Source of the DNA: Streptomyces sp. A3M-1-3
GTDB taxonomy: Bacteria > Actinomycetota > Actinomycetes > Streptomycetales > Streptomycetaceae
NCBI RefSeq assembly: GCF_024213665.1
Contig: NZ_JANAVP010000025.1
Coordinates: forward strand, 1-64,000
Direction: 5' to 3'
Length of the DNA stretch: 64,000 nt
Position 1 is the stretch's first letter. Every line of letters begins with the position of its first letter. Positions 31,318 through 41,918 of this stretch are shown in pieces. Under the pieces are notes generated by a model. The model was not told the DNA's origin, made no database searches, and saw only the letters and a program-made list of their open reading frames with translations. The position numbers were made by a program, and so were the translations under genes.

Positions 31318-32943
31318 TCAGTGGGCTCCCGTTCCGGTGAGGGAGCGGACCTCCAGCTCCGCGTATTTCCCCTTGTCGGCCTCCTCCTTGGTGAGGACGG
31401 TGCCCAACCAGCCGAGCAGGAAGCCCAGCGGGATGGAGACGAGCCCCGGGTTCTCCAGCGGGAACCAGTAGAAGTCGGCGTCCTTGAACATCGAGGTGGG
31501 CTTGCCGGAGACGACCGGCGAGAAGAGCACCAGCACCACGGACGAGATCAGGCCGCCGTAGATGGACCACAGCGCGCCCTGGGTCGTGAACTTCTTCCAG
31601 AACAGGCTGTAGAGGATCGTCGGCAGGTTCGCCGAGGCGGCCACCGCGAAGGCGAGGGCAACCAGGCCGGCGACGTTGAGGTCGCGGGCGAGGGCGCCCA
31701 GTGCGATGGCGGCGGCGCCGATGAAGACCGTGGCCCAACGGGCCGCGCGGACCTCTTCCTGCTCGGTCGTGGTCTTGCCCCTGCGGATGACGTTGACGTA
31801 CAGGTCGTGGGCGAACGACGACGAGGAGGCCAGGGTCAGGCCGGCGACCACCGCGAGGATGGTGGCGAAGGCGACCGCGGAGATGACGGCGAGCAGGATC
31901 GCGCCGCCCGCGGAGTCGGGGCCGCCGCCGATGGCCTGGGCGAGCAGCGGGGCCGCGGTGTTGCCCGCCTTGTTGGAGGCGATGATGTCCTCGCGGTTCA
32001 GCAGCGCGGCGGCGCCGAAGCCGAGCGCGATGGTCATCAGGTAGAAGGCACCGATGATGCCGATCGCCCAGTTCACCGACTTACGGGCGGCCTTGGCCGT
32101 GGGGACGGTGTAGAAGCGGATGAGGATGTGCGGGAGGCCCGCGGTGCCCAGTACGAGGGCGATGCCGAGGGAGATGAAGTCCAGCTTCGAGGTCGCGCTG
32201 ACGCCGTACTTGAGGCCGGGCTCGAGGAACGACGCGCCCGCGCCGCTGTTCTCCGCCGCCTTGCCCAGCAGGTCGGAGACGTTGAAGTTGAACTTCAGCA
32301 GCACCAGGATGGTGATGAGCAGCGTGCCCGCGATAAGGAGCACGGCCTTGACCATCTGGACCCAAGTGGTGCCCTTCATACCGCCGATGGTCACGTAGAG
32401 AATCATCAGGACGCCGACCAGGGCGACGATGGCGACCTTGCCGCCGTCGCTGGTGATGCCCAGCAGCAGGGAGACCAGTACGCCTGCGCCCGCCATCTGC
32501 GCGAGCAGGTAGAAGATCGACACCACGATGGTGGAGGTGCCCGCCGCGGTACGGACGGGGCGCTGCCGCATCCGGTACGCGAGGACGTCACCCATCGTGT
32601 ACCGGCCGGAGTTGCGCAGCGGTTCGGCGACGAGCAGCAGGGCGACCAGCCAGGCGACCAGGAAGCCGATGGAGTAGAGGAAGCCGTCGTAGCCGAAGAG
32701 GGCGATGGCTCCGGCGATACCGAGGAAGGACGCGGCGGACATGTAGTCGCCGGAGATCGCGAGACCGTTCTGGAAGCCGGTGAACTGGCGGCCGCCGGCG
32801 TAGAAGTCGGCGGCGTCCTTGGTCTGCCGGCCGGCCCATACGGTGATGATGAGGGTCGCGACGACGAACAGCCCGAAGAGGGTGATGATCAGCGGCCGGT
32901 GCTCGCCGGCGCCCGCCGCGGCGAGGTGGAACGTAGCGCTCAT
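31318..32943 (-). CDS. Sodium:solute symporter, cation/acetate (ActP/MctC) type
   Basis: A 541-residue SSS-family permease with about 13 membrane helices, expected to import acetate or a related monocarboxylate with a cation. Signatures include FYAGGRQFTGFQNGLAISGD followed by YMSAASFLGIAG, GYDGFLYSIGFLVAWLVALL, and FAHDLYVNVIRRGK. The ATG at 32943 overlaps the stop of the DUF485 gene (ATGA), the same pairing as yjcH-actP. An upstream in-frame extension is not coding. Confidence 0.94.
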   Translation of the reverse strand: MSATFHLAAAGAGEHRPLIITLFGLFVVATLIITVWAGRQTKDAADFYAGGRQFTGFQNGLAISGDYMSAASFLGIAGAIALFGYDGFLYSIGFLVAWLVALLLVAEPLRNSGRYTMGDVLAYRMRQRPVRTAAGTSTIVVSIFYLLAQMAGAGVLVSLLLGITSDGGKVAIVALVGVLMILYVTIGGMKGTTWVQMVKAVLLIAGTLLITILVLLKFNFNVSDLLGKAAENSGAGASFLEPGLKYGVSATSKLDFISLGIALVLGTAGLPHILIRFYTVPTAKAARKSVNWAIGIIGAFYLMTIALGFGAAALLNREDIIASNKAGNTAAPLLAQAIGGGPDSAGGAILLAVISAVAFATILAVVAGLTLASSSSFAHDLYVNVIRRGKTTTEQEEVRAARWATVFIGAAAIALGALARDLNVAGLVALAFAVAASANLPTILYSLFWKKFTTQGALWSIYGGLISSVVLVLFSPVVSGKPTSMFKDADFYWFPLENPGLVSIPLGFLLGWLGTVLTKEEADKGKYAELEVRSLTGTGAH

Positions 32944-36323: not shown

Positions 36324-37217
36324 TCATGCGGCGCTCTCCGTTGCCGGCTGCGGCGCGTGCGCGGGTTGCGGCATGGGCGGCGTCGGGGGTGCCGGCGGCC
36401 AGCCGGGGCCGCCGAAGACACGGCCCGCGCGCTCGCGCCAGCTGCGGGCGGCCCGTACGTCCCGGGCGATCGCGGCGTACTCGTGGGTGGCCACGCGCAG
36501 CGGGTTGTACGTGCCGATGTTCTTCGTCAGGCCGAAGACCGGCCGCTCGGTCTCGGCGACGAAGGACCGGAAGAGCCGGTCCCAGAGGATCAGGATCCCG
36601 CCGAAGTTCCGGTCCAGGTAGCCGCCTTGGGAGGCGTGGTGGACCCGGTGGTGGGAGGGGGTGTTCAGCACGTACTCGAAGGGGCGCGGCAGTTTGTCGA
36701 TCCGCTCGGTGTGGATCCAGAACTGGTAGACGAGGTTCACGGACGAGCAGAACGCGAGCGCGGCCGGATGCACGCCCAGCGCGATCAGCGGGACGTAGAA
36801 CGGCCAGGAGGTCAGGGAGGTCCAGGGCTGGCGGAGCGCGGTGGTGAGGTTGAACTTCTGGCTGGAATGGTGGACGACGTGGCAGGCCCACAGGACACGG
36901 ATGACGTGGTGGCCGCGGTGGGACCAGTAGTAGAAGAAGTCCTGCGCGAGCAGCATCAGCGGGATTGTCCACCACAGGACGGGGACCCGCAGCGGGGTGA
37001 GCTGGTAGATCGCCGTGTAGATCGCGACGACCGGGATCTTCCACAGCAGATCGAAGGCGAGACTGCCGAGGCCCATGCCGACGCTCGTCGCGGCGTCCTT
37101 CGTCTCGTATCCGGCGGCGTCCTCGTCGGGATACAGCCGGTAGCTCACCATCTCCAGGACGGTGAGCAGGATGAAGGCCGGTATCGACCACAGCACGGCG
37201 TCGGGCAGGTTCGGCAT
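36324..37217 (-). CDS. Sterol desaturase / fatty acid hydroxylase superfamily protein
   Basis: A 297-residue membrane di-iron enzyme. The three histidine clusters are visible: HRGHH (HRxxHH), HVVHHSS and HRVHHAS, with an upstream FYYWSH. Four hydrophobic segments surround them. Family members hydroxylate or desaturate lipids; the substrate here is not evident. The C-terminal 40 residues are a Pro/Ala-rich tail. It diverges from the NACHT gene across 143 bases. Confidence 0.9.
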   Translation of the reverse strand: MPNLPDAVLWSIPAFILLTVLEMVSYRLYPDEDAAGYETKDAATSVGMGLGSLAFDLLWKIPVVAIYTAIYQLTPLRVPVLWWTIPLMLLAQDFFYYWSHRGHHVIRVLWACHVVHHSSQKFNLTTALRQPWTSLTSWPFYVPLIALGVHPAALAFCSSVNLVYQFWIHTERIDKLPRPFEYVLNTPSHHRVHHASQGGYLDRNFGGILILWDRLFRSFVAETERPVFGLTKNIGTYNPLRVATHEYAAIARDVRAARSWRERAGRVFGGPGWPPAPPTPPMPQPAHAPQPATESAA

Positions 37218-37360: not shown

Positions 37361-40300
37361 ATGCAGGGGTTCGAGGCGGTTCTGCTGAGGCTCGCGGGGA
37401 CGGTCGTCGGCGCACTGGTCAAGCCGATGCTGAGCCGGCAGCCGGGCGCGGGACTCGTCGCGAACCCGGAGCGCCCCGCGCCGCGCTGGCGGCGCCCGGT
37501 GGAGCTGGGGGACAAGGAGCTCGGCCGGCTGACCGAGGGGCTCGCCGCCCGCCTGGCGGTGGCGGCCGACGGGCTGCCGGAGTACGAGCGGCTGGCGGCG
37601 GCCGACGCGGTACGGGACGCGTTCACGGCGACCGGGGTGCTGGACCAGGAAGCCCTGTTCGCCCAGGACCTCGACCCGGACCGGCTGACATCGGCGGTGC
37701 TGGCCCGCGCCCCGAGGGCAGCCGGTCTCAGCGACGCCGGGACGGCCCTCTTCGAGGAGCTGGCCGGGCTGTGCTGCCGCCACGTCGTGGAGTACGTGAC
37801 GACGCTGCCCGGGTTCTCGGCCCGGGCGGACGTCGAAGTCGTACGCCGGACCGGGGAGTTGGGGCGGGCGCTGGAGGACGTACGGGACCGGCTGGGACCG
37901 CCGACCGGGTCGGTGGCCGCGCGCTTCGAGCAGCAGTACGCGGACTTCGTCGCCGCGACGTACGGTCGCCTCGAGCTGTTCGGGCTGACGCTGAACCGGG
38001 AACGCAACGAGTGGCCGCTGGACACGGCGTACATAAGCCTCGCCGTCAGCAGCGACCGCGATGACGGTGCGCACCAGGAGGGCATGGGCGTCCCCCGTAC
38101 CGGAACGGTCGCCGTGAAGGCCGAGCAGGCGCTGTCGGGTGCCGGCCGGCTGCTGCTGCGCGGTCCGGCGGGGTCGGGCAAGAGCACGCTCGTGCAGTGG
38201 ATCGCGCTCAACGCGGCCCGGCGCAGCTTCGGCCCGGACCTGGCCGACTGGAACCTGTGCGTCCCCTTCGTCCTGCGGCTGCGCTCCTTCAACTCCCCCG
38301 ACGCGCTGCCGATGCCGGAGGACTTCCTCCGGGCGGCCAGGGTCCCGCTGCACGGATCGGCGCCCGCCGGCTGGGCCGAGAGCCTGCTGAGCAGCGGCCG
38401 GGCCCTGGTTCTCGTCGATGGCGTGGACGAGGTCCCACAGCGGTTGCGCAACCGGACCGAGGCGTGGCTGCGGTCCCTGATCACCGCTTTCCCCAAGGCG
38501 CGTTACGTGGTCACGACCCGGCCGTCGGCCGTCCCGGAGGAGTGGCTGGCGGGCCTGGGATTCGGCGCGCACTCCTTACTTCCGATGGAGCGGGACGACA
38601 TCCGCGCGTTCATCGCGCACTGGCACGACACGGCGCGCGGGGAGTGCCTGTCCCCGGCCGAACGGGAACAGCTCGACACCTACCAAACGTCCCTCACCCG
38701 GGCCGTCACGTCCCGGCGGGACCTCGGCCGGATCGCCACCAACCCCTTGATGTGCGCGCTGCTGTGCGCCCTGAACCGCGACCGGCGGATGCAGCTTCCG
38801 CGGGCGCGCAAGGAGCTGTACGACGCCGCGCTCGACCTGCTGCTCGTACGGCGGGACACGGAACGGGAGATCACCGGGGTGGAAGGCGTCTACCTCACCC
38901 GCGACGAACAGACCCTGCTGCTGCAGCGCCTCGCGTACTGGCTGATCCGCAACGGCCAGACGGAGGCGGCCCGGGAGGATGTCGTCGAGATGGTGGACGA
39001 GTGGCTCGACGCGATGCCGCAGGTGCGAGCACAGGGCAGCGCGAGGCAGGTCCTCTCGCATCTGCTGATCCGCAGCGGACTGCTGCGCGAACCCGTCCGG
39101 GGCGCGGTGAACTTCGTACACCGCACGTTCCAGGACTACCTCGGCGCCAAGGCGGCGGTCGAGGCACGGGACTTCGGGGTACTGGTCCGCAACGCGCACG
39201 ACGACCAGTGGGACGACGTGGTCCGTATGGCGGTCGGCCATGCGCGGCCGGATGAACGAGCCCGGCTGCTCAAGCAGCTGCTGCGTCGCGCGGACCGGGT
39301 CAAGACCCACCGCCACCGCCTGGTGCTGCTGGCCGCGGCGTGTCTGGAGCACGCACCGGAGCTGGATCCGTCCATCCGGACGGAGGTGGAGGCCCGGACG
39401 GCGGAACTGCTGCCGCCACGGAGTCTCGCGCAGGCGGAGGATCTGGCCCAGGTGGGTGAGCTGGTCCTCGAACTACTGCCAGAGCCGGCCGACCTGCCGG
39501 AGGCCGAGGCGGCGGCCACGGTCCGGACGGCGGCGCTGGTCGGTGGTCCACGGGCGCTGGCGGTCATCGCCCGCTTCCGCGAGGACACGCGTTTCCCGGT
39601 CTGCTACCAGCTGTCCGACGGCTGGGGCAGATTCGATACGGCGGAGTACGCGGATGCTGTGCTGTCCGGAGCGTCGCTGGGTGAGGCGTTCCTGCATATT
39701 CACACGTCCGAACAGCTCAGCTCTCTCACCAAGCTCAGAGCCATCAAGGGCGTGCACCTCACGTGGGAAGACGGGATTCCACCCAGCCTCACCAGGCAAC
39801 GGGACTTGCAGCGGCTGACGCTGTACAGGAACAAGCGGCTCGTCGACCTGACCCCGCTCGCGGTACTCCAACGGCTGACGCACCTCGGTATTTTCGACTG
39901 CCCAGAGGTGAGCGGCATCCGGCCATTGACATCGCTTCCCCTGCGCTCCCTGTACCTCTCCCGCGTACGGGACGGCCTGTCCCTCAGCCCGCTCTCGGAG
40001 ATCGCGACGCTCAGAGGCCTGACCATCGACTTCGCGGCCGACATCAGGTGCGTCGGTGACATTCCCGCACACGCGGGCCTGACGTCACTTGGCTTGGGGC
40101 AACGGGCTCGTTTCATCGACCTGGACGGACTCGAACGCTGGCCTGACCTCACCACCTTGTCGATTACCGGGGACGAACAGAACGCGCAACTGGCCCGGCA
40201 GAGGCCGCTGCCGCCGCTCAAAATGCTGCAGCTGCTCGATCAATCGGCTCTCCGTCCCGATTCACTGCTCCTCCACCAGGAGGTCACCGGGATCTACCTG

Positions 40301-40498
40301 ACCAGGTGCAGGCTCACCGGGGGACTCGGCCCACTTCGGTCGCTGCCGGCGCTCACCCGCCTTGATCTCAGCGACTGCAGCGGTCCCCTCGATCTGTCCC
40401 CCTTGGCTGAATTGGACCAGCTCACGATAGAGATCTCACGCGGCACAAACGTGCAGGGCGCAGAGCTGATCCCGCCGGAGCGGCTCACGTTCGCCTGA
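37361..40498 (+). CDS. NACHT-domain STAND NTPase with leucine-rich repeat C-terminus
   Basis: A 1045-residue signal-transduction ATPase. Residues 1 to about 255 are a helical N-terminal region of the NACHT-associated helical type. The NACHT core follows, with Walker A GPAGSGKST (268-276), Walker B with LVLVDGVDE (Asp353) and a sensor region around RYVVTTRPSAVPEEW. A winged-helix/helical arm leads to LRR-like repeats from about 780 to the end (LTPLAVLQRLTHLGIFDCPE, LPALTRLDLSDCSGPLDLSP). Bacterial NACHT proteins include anti-phage sensors; function here is inferred. The LRR part has visibly weaker GC at third positions. ATG 37361 has GGGGGAGG upstream. Confidence 0.88.
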   Translation: MQGFEAVLLRLAGTVVGALVKPMLSRQPGAGLVANPERPAPRWRRPVELGDKELGRLTEGLAARLAVAADGLPEYERLAAADAVRDAFTATGVLDQEALFAQDLDPDRLTSAVLARAPRAAGLSDAGTALFEELAGLCCRHVVEYVTTLPGFSARADVEVVRRTGELGRALEDVRDRLGPPTGSVAARFEQQYADFVAATYGRLELFGLTLNRERNEWPLDTAYISLAVSSDRDDGAHQEGMGVPRTGTVAVKAEQALSGAGRLLLRGPAGSGKSTLVQWIALNAARRSFGPDLADWNLCVPFVLRLRSFNSPDALPMPEDFLRAARVPLHGSAPAGWAESLLSSGRALVLVDGVDEVPQRLRNRTEAWLRSLITAFPKARYVVTTRPSAVPEEWLAGLGFGAHSLLPMERDDIRAFIAHWHDTARGECLSPAEREQLDTYQTSLTRAVTSRRDLGRIATNPLMCALLCALNRDRRMQLPRARKELYDAALDLLLVRRDTEREITGVEGVYLTRDEQTLLLQRLAYWLIRNGQTEAAREDVVEMVDEWLDAMPQVRAQGSARQVLSHLLIRSGLLREPVRGAVNFVHRTFQDYLGAKAAVEARDFGVLVRNAHDDQWDDVVRMAVGHARPDERARLLKQLLRRADRVKTHRHRLVLLAAACLEHAPELDPSIRTEVEARTAELLPPRSLAQAEDLAQVGELVLELLPEPADLPEAEAAATVRTAALVGGPRALAVIARFREDTRFPVCYQLSDGWGRFDTAEYADAVLSGASLGEAFLHIHTSEQLSSLTKLRAIKGVHLTWEDGIPPSLTRQRDLQRLTLYRNKRLVDLTPLAVLQRLTHLGIFDCPEVSGIRPLTSLPLRSLYLSRVRDGLSLSPLSEIATLRGLTIDFAADIRCVGDIPAHAGLTSLGLGQRARFIDLDGLERWPDLTTLSITGDEQNAQLARQRPLPPLKMLQLLDQSALRPDSLLLHQEVTGIYLTRCRLTGGLGPLRSLPALTRLDLSDCSGPLDLSPLAELDQLTIEISRGTNVQGAELIPPERLTFA

Positions 40499-40841: not shown

Positions 40842-40949
40842 CGCCCTGACATTTCCGGCATCCCTGGCGTGGCCGAATCGCCGGCCGATCGCCGGCGAGA
40901 TCCCGGGCCGATCCTGGGCTGTCAGTCGCAGCCCGTATTCTCTGTGACC

Positions 40950-41918
40950 ATGCTCGACGACCGTACGACCGCAGCAGCGTGGCCGGCCGCGTACCCCCAG
41001 GGGTACGCGGTCGTTGACGTGGAGACCACCGGACTCGCCCGCGACGACCGGATAGTGTCCGCTGCCGTCTACCGGCTCGACGCGCAGGGCAACGTCGAGG
41101 ACCACTGGTACACGCTCGTCAACCCGGAGCGGGATCCGGGTCCCGTGTGGATTCACGGGCTCACCAGCGACGTACTCGAAGGCGCCCCGCTCTTCCAGGA
41201 CATCGCGTACGAGTTCTCGACGCGGCTCGCGGACCGGGTGCTCGTCGCGCACAACGCCATGTTCGACTGGTCGATGATCGCCCGGGAGTACGCACGGGCC
41301 GAGCGGACCGCCCCCGTCCGGCAGCGGCTGTGCACGATCGCGCTCTCCAAGGAGCTCAGGCTGCCGCTGCCCAACCACAAGCTGGAGTCGCTCGCCGCGC
41401 ACTTCGGTGTCGTACAGCAGCGCGCGCACCACGCCCTCGACGACGCGCGCGTGCTCGCCGAGGCGTTCCGGCCCAGCCTGCACGCGGCTGTGCGGGACGG
41501 GGTGCGGCTGCCGCTGCTGGAATGCCGGCCGCTGACGGAGTGGTCGGACGCGCCCGCCGCACCCCGGGTCGGATACCAGGCCTCGTACCGGCCGATGAGC
41601 TGGCGACCCTCCCGCAGGCGGCCGGCCTGCCCCTACCCGAACCCCGGGCGGTACGAGGTGGGCAGGCCGCTGAAGCAGGGCATGCGGGTGGCGTTCTCCG
41701 GCGACACATCCGTCGACCGCGAGCTGCTGGAGGACCGGGCGGTCGAGGCGGGGCTGCACATCGCCACGAGTGTGTCCCGGCTCACCAGTCTGCTGGTCAC
41801 GAACGACCCCGGCTCCGCGACCTCCAAGACGGTCAAGGCCAGGTCGTACGCCACCCCGGTGGTCGACGAGGCGGCCTTCACCCAGCTGCTGCGGGACGTG
41901 GCCCCGGCAGACGGGTGA
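40950..41918 (+). CDS. DEDDh 3'-5' exonuclease with C-terminal BRCT-like domain
   Basis: A 322-residue DnaQ-like exonuclease. ExoI is VVDVETTGLARDD (Asp, Glu), ExoII is VLVAHNAMFDWSMI (Asp), and ExoIII is QRAHHALDDARVLAEAF (His, Asp), together spanning about 15-180. The C-terminal part (about 245-320: LKQGMRVAFSGDTSVDRELL, SVSRLTSLLVTNDPG, TKTVKAR-type) resembles the BRCT domains found after actinobacterial epsilon-like exonucleases. A linker with Cys/Tyr/Pro-rich CPYPNPGRYEVG separates them. ATG 40950 is chosen; GTG 40944 is alternative. Confidence 0.9.
   Translation: MLDDRTTAAAWPAAYPQGYAVVDVETTGLARDDRIVSAAVYRLDAQGNVEDHWYTLVNPERDPGPVWIHGLTSDVLEGAPLFQDIAYEFSTRLADRVLVAHNAMFDWSMIAREYARAERTAPVRQRLCTIALSKELRLPLPNHKLESLAAHFGVVQQRAHHALDDARVLAEAFRPSLHAAVRDGVRLPLLECRPLTEWSDAPAAPRVGYQASYRPMSWRPSRRRPACPYPNPGRYEVGRPLKQGMRVAFSGDTSVDRELLEDRAVEAGLHIATSVSRLTSLLVTNDPGSATSKTVKARSYATPVVDEAAFTQLLRDVAPADG

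Follow-up and report, generated by a model that had tools for sequence, protein, structure and literature searches.

Bacterial proteins that combine a NACHT domain with leucine-rich repeats (LRRs) have been termed bona fide bacterial NLRs (PMC12169576, in the parts compared here). We analysed a 64,000-nucleotide stretch of Streptomyces sp. A3M-1-3 (NZ_JANAVP010000025.1, positions 1 to 64,000; hereafter, the window), one gene of which encodes such a protein: a NACHT domain with a Walker A motif and a D-G-x-D-E Walker B motif precedes C-terminal LRRs, and the order of domains is NNH1-NACHT-helical region-LRR. The family (bacterial NLR / NNH1-NACHT) is known, and what appears to be new is the evolutionary mode; no report of exchanged or diversifying LRRs in bacterial NLRs was found in the open-access literature, among the matches listed. 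We consider it fairly probable that this bacterial NLR, located mostly at one chromosomal site, uses its LRR as an allelic, horizontally exchanged recognition module in an immune-type receptor.

The proteins bNACHT25, bNACHT32, bNACHT02 and bNACHT12 likewise place a NACHT STAND NTPase in the centre, between N- and C-terminal partner regions, but their C-termini are SNaCT or NCH1 (with a nuclease N-terminus in clade 6), not LRRs; neither NNH1 nor an allele-wise exchange of the sensor is mentioned in the compared parts of that account (PMC12169576). The NNH1-NACHT family (PF22733 plus PF05729) has the same domains (E 5e-36 and 1e-24), and the orthologue group described below is set off from these other relatives by a score gap and shares one site (NNH1 was checked in some of the relatives, which occur in 208 genomes). 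Barley Mla, in the portion of PMC7857584 used here, likewise combines a single locus with allelic diversification, and its LRR sets specificity, as the Streptomyces LRR may; Mla, however, is a plant NLR whose specificity was shown by experiment, whereas the Streptomyces gene is known from its sequence alone. In NLRC4, NLRP3 and NOD2, too, NACHT is followed by helical domains and LRRs, with CARD or PYD where the Streptomyces protein has NNH1. The targets of diversity-generating retroelements (DGRs) are short stretches. Conflict sensors diversified by DGRs, as portrayed in part of PMC10907252, are also diversified putative sensors of multicellular bacteria, but here about 1 kb is replaced rather than a short targeted stretch, and no reverse transcriptase was found in the window's genome or in four of the five relatives tested.

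Hypervariability and exchange of the LRR domain

We aligned 51 distinct uninterrupted frames, having dropped a partial copy (L109), two broken ones (L111 and L112), one with a stop (L038) and five repeats; two of the 51 are partly frame-shifted (L045 at its end, L061 at its start), and their removal left 49 sequences. Mean pairwise identity among the 49 was 0.53 in NNH1, 0.53 in the linker, 0.72 in NACHT, 0.80 in residues 431-640, the most conserved part, 0.60 in residues 641-770 and 0.37 in the LRR domain, in which the gap fraction was 0.013 and both length and scaffold leucines were kept. No other LRR is more than 48% identical to that of the window, and over the 1275 pairs of all 51 sequences the nonsynonymous divergence (dN) of the LRR was a median 4.1 times that of the core. 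The GC content of third codon positions (GC3) is 0.905 in residues 1-770 of the window's gene versus 0.804 in residues 771-1045, and it is lower in the LRR than in the rest in 43 of the 49 sequences (45 of 51 with the two frame-shifted ones, the window's own included). The drop therefore characterises the whole gene group and is not peculiar to this copy. The original prediction, made from the letters of the window, had remarked on this weaker GC3 and proposed fast evolution or exchange of the sensing part; the identity profiles, the tree conflict and the face-by-face comparison given below support it.

Several observations indicate exchange. First, when 19 kb of loci L035 and L037 is compared in 300-bp bins, identity outside the LRR is 0.90-0.98 in all but three bins (one upstream, 0.79; two downstream, 0.85 and 0.88). 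Within the LRR, identity drops via 0.79 to 0.61, 0.57 and 0.55, and it returns to 0.89 in the bin starting 60 bases before the gene end and to 0.98 in the next; synonymous divergence (dS) for this pair is 0.11 in the core, 0.10 in NNH1 and 0.82 in the LRR. Second, in a clade of six genomes the LRR nucleotide identity of 13 of the 15 pairs is 0.48-0.54, the level of unrelated alleles (median 0.50, all pairs), and the 3 kb on each side are 0.87-0.96 identical. In close pairs LRR divergence stands out from both flanks; since L033/L091 show no LRR drop, and L097/L108 and L092/L094 mild ones, these graded differences imply both fast change and outright replacement. Third, quick trees of the core and of the LRR (29 rows, L045 and L061 among them) disagree. 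The core tree joins L035 with L037 (96) and L039 with L046 (99), and the LRR tree joins L034 with L035 (88), L037 with L039 (100) and L043 with L044 (100). In approximately unbiased tests, applied to groups named after the identities had been seen, the LRR rejected L035+L037 (p 2.8e-35) and the six-genome clade (p 2e-5), and the core rejected L034+L035 (p 6e-6). This conflict implies that LRRs have been exchanged by recombination, and the Mla-like pattern of a conserved core with recombining LRR alleles at one locus is thus found here, between species only.

The exchanged unit may sometimes be larger. The LRRs of L034 and L035 are 0.72 identical, the median at their core distance being 0.34 (range 0.24-0.72, 365 pairs); since the two loci differ more along the entire gene (0.71-0.80 identity in 300-bp bins) than in the flanks (mostly 0.83-0.93), whole alleles may be exchanged too. 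In the wider NNH1-NACHT family, C-termini were more variable than cores in all 25 closest pairs listed. The paralogous NNH1-NACHT pair L121 and L128 has a core identity of 0.91 and a C-terminal identity of 0.36, sequence values that suggest sensor turnover beyond the orthologue group as well.

Two sources of new LRRs were considered and rejected. Silent LRR cassettes were not seen: within its own genome the window's LRR has no match but itself (E up to 1), and among 392 genomes nothing close to that of L037 was found (other matches 53% at best, five candidates per genome scored). A DGR was sought through its reverse transcriptase (RVT_1), which is missing from five of the six genomes tested, the window's included, so that no DGR operates there. 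A reverse transcriptase domain does lie at G039:C3:109700-110365 (437-aa frame), on a contig other than that of the NLR of this genome, L046, whose branch is the longest of the LRR tree.

Substitution at concave LRR positions

The usual exposed positions of the concave face are -1, +1, +3 and +4 around the second leucine of LxxLxL. At these positions the mean entropy was 2.90, against 2.32 at the other non-hydrophobic LRR positions (p 2e-7, all 51 sequences). We estimated dN/dS by counting (Nei-Gojobori with Jukes-Cantor) in ten disjoint pairs chosen by rule for the highest core identity (at least 0.885), with L045, L061 and a clade with a decayed N-terminus left out. The ratio was 1.01 at concave positions (95% bootstrap interval 0.79-1.28), 0.39 at other LRR positions, 0.26 in NNH1 and 0.14 in the core; concave exceeded other LRR positions in all ten pairs (concave range 0.53-1.99), and the concave value was not reached in any of 2000 random draws of exposed LRR positions. 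In seven less divergent pairs without outright replacement, chosen by hand, the corresponding values were 0.80 (0.60-1.07), 0.31, 0.23 and 0.15, again with 0 of 2000 random sets. Forty LRR positions can be named as the expected contacts of a trigger.

The decayed clade comprises six orthologues (L053, L058, L059, L061, L062 and L064) in which the first ~175 residues have decayed; at E 0.01 five have no NNH1 match, and L064 falls just under the cut-off. L061 looks frame-shifted at its N-terminus, being ~0.85-0.90 identical to L059 in nucleotides and 0.21 in protein. In the two clean disjoint pairs of this clade, dN/dS was 0.94 in NNH1, 0.17 in the core, 0.32 at other LRR positions and 0.14 (0.03-0.35) at concave positions, a value as low as which was reached by 88 of 2000 random sets. 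When the frame-shifted L045 and L061 were kept, the concave ratio of the main pairs was 0.91, and in the decayed clade it was 0.12, with 1.00 in NNH1 and 8 of 2000 random sets. In this clade NACHT remains constrained and the concave face is conserved. It is thus suggested, from one clade and few pairs, that diversification of the concave face is tied to an intact NNH1.

Domain architecture and chromosomal site

The features of the gene and the landmarks of its site are collected in the table. The original prediction had described a NACHT-LRR STAND NTPase with a helical N-terminus, Walker motifs at residues 268-276 and around Asp353, and degenerate LRRs from about residue 780. The Pfam matches to NACHT and to LRR_4 (residues 976-1016, E 1e-8, the LRR domain extending beyond this span) agree with the first claim. 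Both Walker motifs lie where they had been placed: in 50 aligned orthologues, seven of the nine Walker A residues are invariant, S272 is nearly so and P269 varies, and K274, D353 (within LVLVDGVDE), G354, D356 and E357 are all invariant. The helical N-terminus corresponds to a named domain, NNH1, its score of 124.8 bits lying above the curated Pfam cut-off of 27. The LRRs are present; they are more regular than degenerate, with an LxxLxL register from residue 795, a spacing of 21-23 residues and ~11 repeats. Internalin LRRs are their nearest solved sequences, since all 26 matches in the PDB are internalins or internalin fusions.

Features of the window's NLR gene and of the flanking genes that mark its site
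Feature	Position	Strand	Basis or remark
NNH1-NACHT-LRR (bacterial NLR) gene	37361..40498	+	1045 aa plus stop, uninterrupted open reading frame
N-terminal helix 1 (residues 3-25), then conserved PGAGL turn	37367..37435	+	AlphaFold prediction of the N-terminal part
NNH1 domain (residues 8-174), helical, candidate output domain	37382..37882	+	Pfam PF22733, E 5.3e-36
NACHT domain (residues 264-423)	38150..38629	+	Pfam PF05729, E 1e-24
Walker A GPAGSGKST (residues 268-276)	38162..38188	+	motif, orthologue alignment
Walker B LVLVDGVDE region (residues 348-357, D353/D356/E357)	38402..38431	+	motif, orthologue alignment
Helical region, residues 431-770, WHD/HD2-like (inferred from position)	38651..39670	+	
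Hypervariable LRR domain (residues 771-1045), ~11 repeats	39671..40495	+	concave-face positions fastest
Left flank: sterol desaturase / fatty acid hydroxylase family gene	36324..37217	-	Pfam PF04116; divergent from NLR gene; site landmark
Right flank: DEDDh-type exonuclease gene	40947..41918	+	Pfam PF00929; core gene; site landmark

An AlphaFold model of the whole protein, built from a 50-sequence alignment, had a mean predicted local distance difference test score (pLDDT) of 81.9 and a predicted TM-score of 0.61. The LRR part (10-residue mean pLDDT 83-97) has a strand at each repeat and NNH1 is modelled as helical (block means 88-96 for residues 51-180). The top Foldseek matches to the whole model were NLRC4, NLRP3 and NOD2, over nearly the full length (E 6.7e-18 and weaker), with a global TM-score of only ~0.3 and 13-16% identity; judging from these models, the likeness to animal NLRs appears to lie in the order of domains rather than in one rigid arrangement. 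NNH1 is predicted to fold into a helical bundle whose first helix and PGAGL turn are conserved, and R10, A12, G29, A30 and L32 are conserved at 90% or more in 58 sequences. Among the best 50 Foldseek matches to NNH1 none was significant (best E 1.2, probability at most 0.14), the insignificant ones including BCL-2-family chains (BOK at rank 1, BFL-1 at rank 4) and sigma factors; VIA-align gave a best Z of 5.5 with a root-mean-square deviation of 10, in the range of chance matches between helical bundles, and no CARD, other death-fold or plant coiled-coil appeared in the best 50 rows of either search. A membrane-active first helix was also considered and set aside: its hydrophobic moment of 0.43 is compatible with the idea and proves nothing.

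Of 295 genomes of the genus, 208 contain a relative of the protein at E 1e-20 or better. In 38 of them, the window's included, the match scores at least 1018 bits at 53-65% identity (100% for its own), and the next match scores 687 bits; this gap, with the two best candidates scored per genome, defines the orthologues, and 257 genomes have no match at that score. The original prediction held that presence at the same locus in essentially all Streptomyces, with a highly conserved LRR and no effect on phage infection, would speak against an immune sensor; the gene, though mostly at one locus, is present in 38 of the 295 genomes, with a mean LRR identity of 37%. In 34 of the 37 other orthologues (all but L041, L045 and L054) the gene has the same position as in the window, flanked by a sterol desaturase/alcohol dehydrogenase pair and by the exonuclease gene, the exonuclease end not always being reached within the stretch fetched; the pair is missing or partial in a few loci and its order is changed in L067. 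In a second set, from a pattern scan of named genomes, the site was the same in 16 of 22 loci (L101, L102, L103, L105 and L110 being counted as repeats of first-set loci). The exonuclease gene is present in 286 of the 295 genomes, and 85 of 121 genomes have a sterol desaturase match at E 1e-60.

Among genomes that lack the orthologue, we took the 20 whose exonuclease is most similar; they have other genes or none at the site, and in three of them (L079, L080 and L089) a short NLR remnant lies beside the sterol desaturase. Copies are broken in L038 (internal stop), L045 (frame-shifted near the end), and L111 and L112 (several frames). Because of the common site, the remnants and the broken copies, the gene seems to have resided at one site for long and to have been lost repeatedly, rather than to have arrived recently as an island. 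Measured on the best tblastn segment, identity to the window's copy is 53-64% for the NLR; for its neighbours it ranges from 76-95% (MoaA, the gene at 31318, desaturase, exonuclease) and 67-88% (dehydrogenase) to 60-73% (subtilase), 50-63% (a SURF1-like gene, named by eye) and 57-74% (two genes further right). With several neighbours about equally divergent, the whole-gene divergence of the NLR alone is not special.

The window's genome has no second copy at E 0.001; it has two further NACHT matches, G000:C25:49354-49827 and G000:C5:207972-208418 (L142 and L143), one within a 1751-aa open frame and the other borderline. Another short remnant of the NLR gene, an LRR-only match, lies at G119:C210:19840-20589, in a 292-aa open frame. 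A linear plasmid of Streptomyces sp. NBC_01320 (NZ_CP108391.1, L139) carries a 60% identical full-length copy, frame-shifted near its end and with transposase genes downstream; plasmids may ferry LRR alleles between species.

The idea of a defence island was dropped: the neighbourhood looks metabolic and core, and the variable clusters between the NLR and the exonuclease, one member of each scanned with Pfam, gave VIT1, amidohydrolase, short-chain dehydrogenase, acetoacetate-decarboxylase-like, TetR and Prok-RING_4 proteins, the two scanned against PADLOC having no match. One cluster (c6, L072:2882-5236; also in L034, L043, L044, L058, L059, L061, L062 and L081) consists of genes of ~780-940 aa; of the 61 sequences examined, 9 have one adjoining the exonuclease gene. 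A Prok-RING_4 domain was found at the N-terminus of the single member scanned, which matched nothing in PADLOC. The exonuclease of the window itself matches the PADLOC candidate PDC-S48 (E 6e-73), a label that looks too broad here because the gene is present in nearly all genomes.

A candidate immune receptor and its rivals

How might such a receptor act? Most likely, it is an NLR-type receptor engaged in an arms race, in which the trigger is met on the concave LRR face, NACHT is the switch and NNH1 the output. At rest, the helical region and the LRR would hold the NACHT ATPase closed; a cognate trigger, most likely a protein of a phage or another mobile element, would bind the concave face, nucleotide exchange and oligomerisation of NACHT would follow, and the NNH1 helical domains, brought together in this way, would then arrest or kill the cell. 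Because triggers would escape, selection would favour new concave faces; we propose that substitution creates these and that homologous recombination carries them from one species to another, with the conserved core as one arm and the conserved 3′ flank as the other. The sequences themselves show the domains, the common site, the exchange of LRRs and the faster change of the concave face, whereas binding of a ligand, oligomerisation, an output through NNH1 and a phage trigger are inferences.

Several observations weigh against this interpretation. The concave dN/dS is not significantly above 1, so that positive selection is suggested and not proven, and the estimates come from simple counting at fairly high divergence, the LRR having about twice the dS of the core. 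The contrast with the decayed clade comes from two clean pairs and is weaker without L045 and L061. No catalytic or pore fold was recognised in NNH1 by Foldseek or VIA-align. The orthologue is absent from most genomes and broken at several loci, a pattern that would fit a dispensable gene too. The genes next to the NLR gene include none recognised as a defence gene, and in PADLOC-DB (2023), AVAST/Avs included, the best match of the protein was a 30-residue P-loop stretch (E 0.0033, 15 bits).

The main rival, which we regard as unlikely, is allorecognition: the polymorphic LRR would sense non-self (or self) hyphae on contact or fusion and trigger local death, as fungal het NLRs do. Highly divergent alleles at a single locus, common to several lineages, would also be expected from balancing selection on self and non-self, which fungal allorecognition genes, NLRs among them, display (parts of PMC12222747 and PMC10890737), and no phage homologue of the protein was found at E 1e-5. 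The lack of an ortholog-level match in 257 of 295 genomes would, on the other hand, be unusual for a kin-recognition locus.

Less probable still is a STAND-type transcriptional or developmental regulator, after the models of MalT and AfsR, whose LRR follows a changing intracellular signal. The metabolic neighbourhood would suit it, and bacterial STAND NTPases have been studied mainly as transcriptional regulators (PMC7159879, in part); no DNA-binding domain was found by Pfam, however, and a metabolic signal would poorly explain replaced LRRs together with raised change on the concave face. That the LRR has no recognition function, and varies through relaxed constraint or local hypermutation, is very improbable: its lower GC3 and its doubled dS even without clear replacement (0.54 vs 0.26) would fit, but the LRR has kept its length and its scaffold leucines, one face takes most of the change, the tree conflict requires recombination, and five of six genomes tested lack the reverse transcriptase of a DGR.

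Returning to the arms-race receptor, we are evenly divided over a bolder form of it: an allelic series in a bacterium like that of plant R genes or fungal het genes, in which a single-locus NLR has its whole LRR swapped between species through homologous recombination, its concave face diversifies to give one private specificity per strain, loss of NNH1 freezes that face, and the system may serve hyphal non-self recognition. If this is true, the freezing of the face on NNH1 loss would link the killing function with the arms race. The LRR alleles carried on a near-identical backbone (L035 and L037) are ready-made pairs for asking what bacterial LRRs target, and they bear on whether bacteria evolve NLR specificities as plants do.

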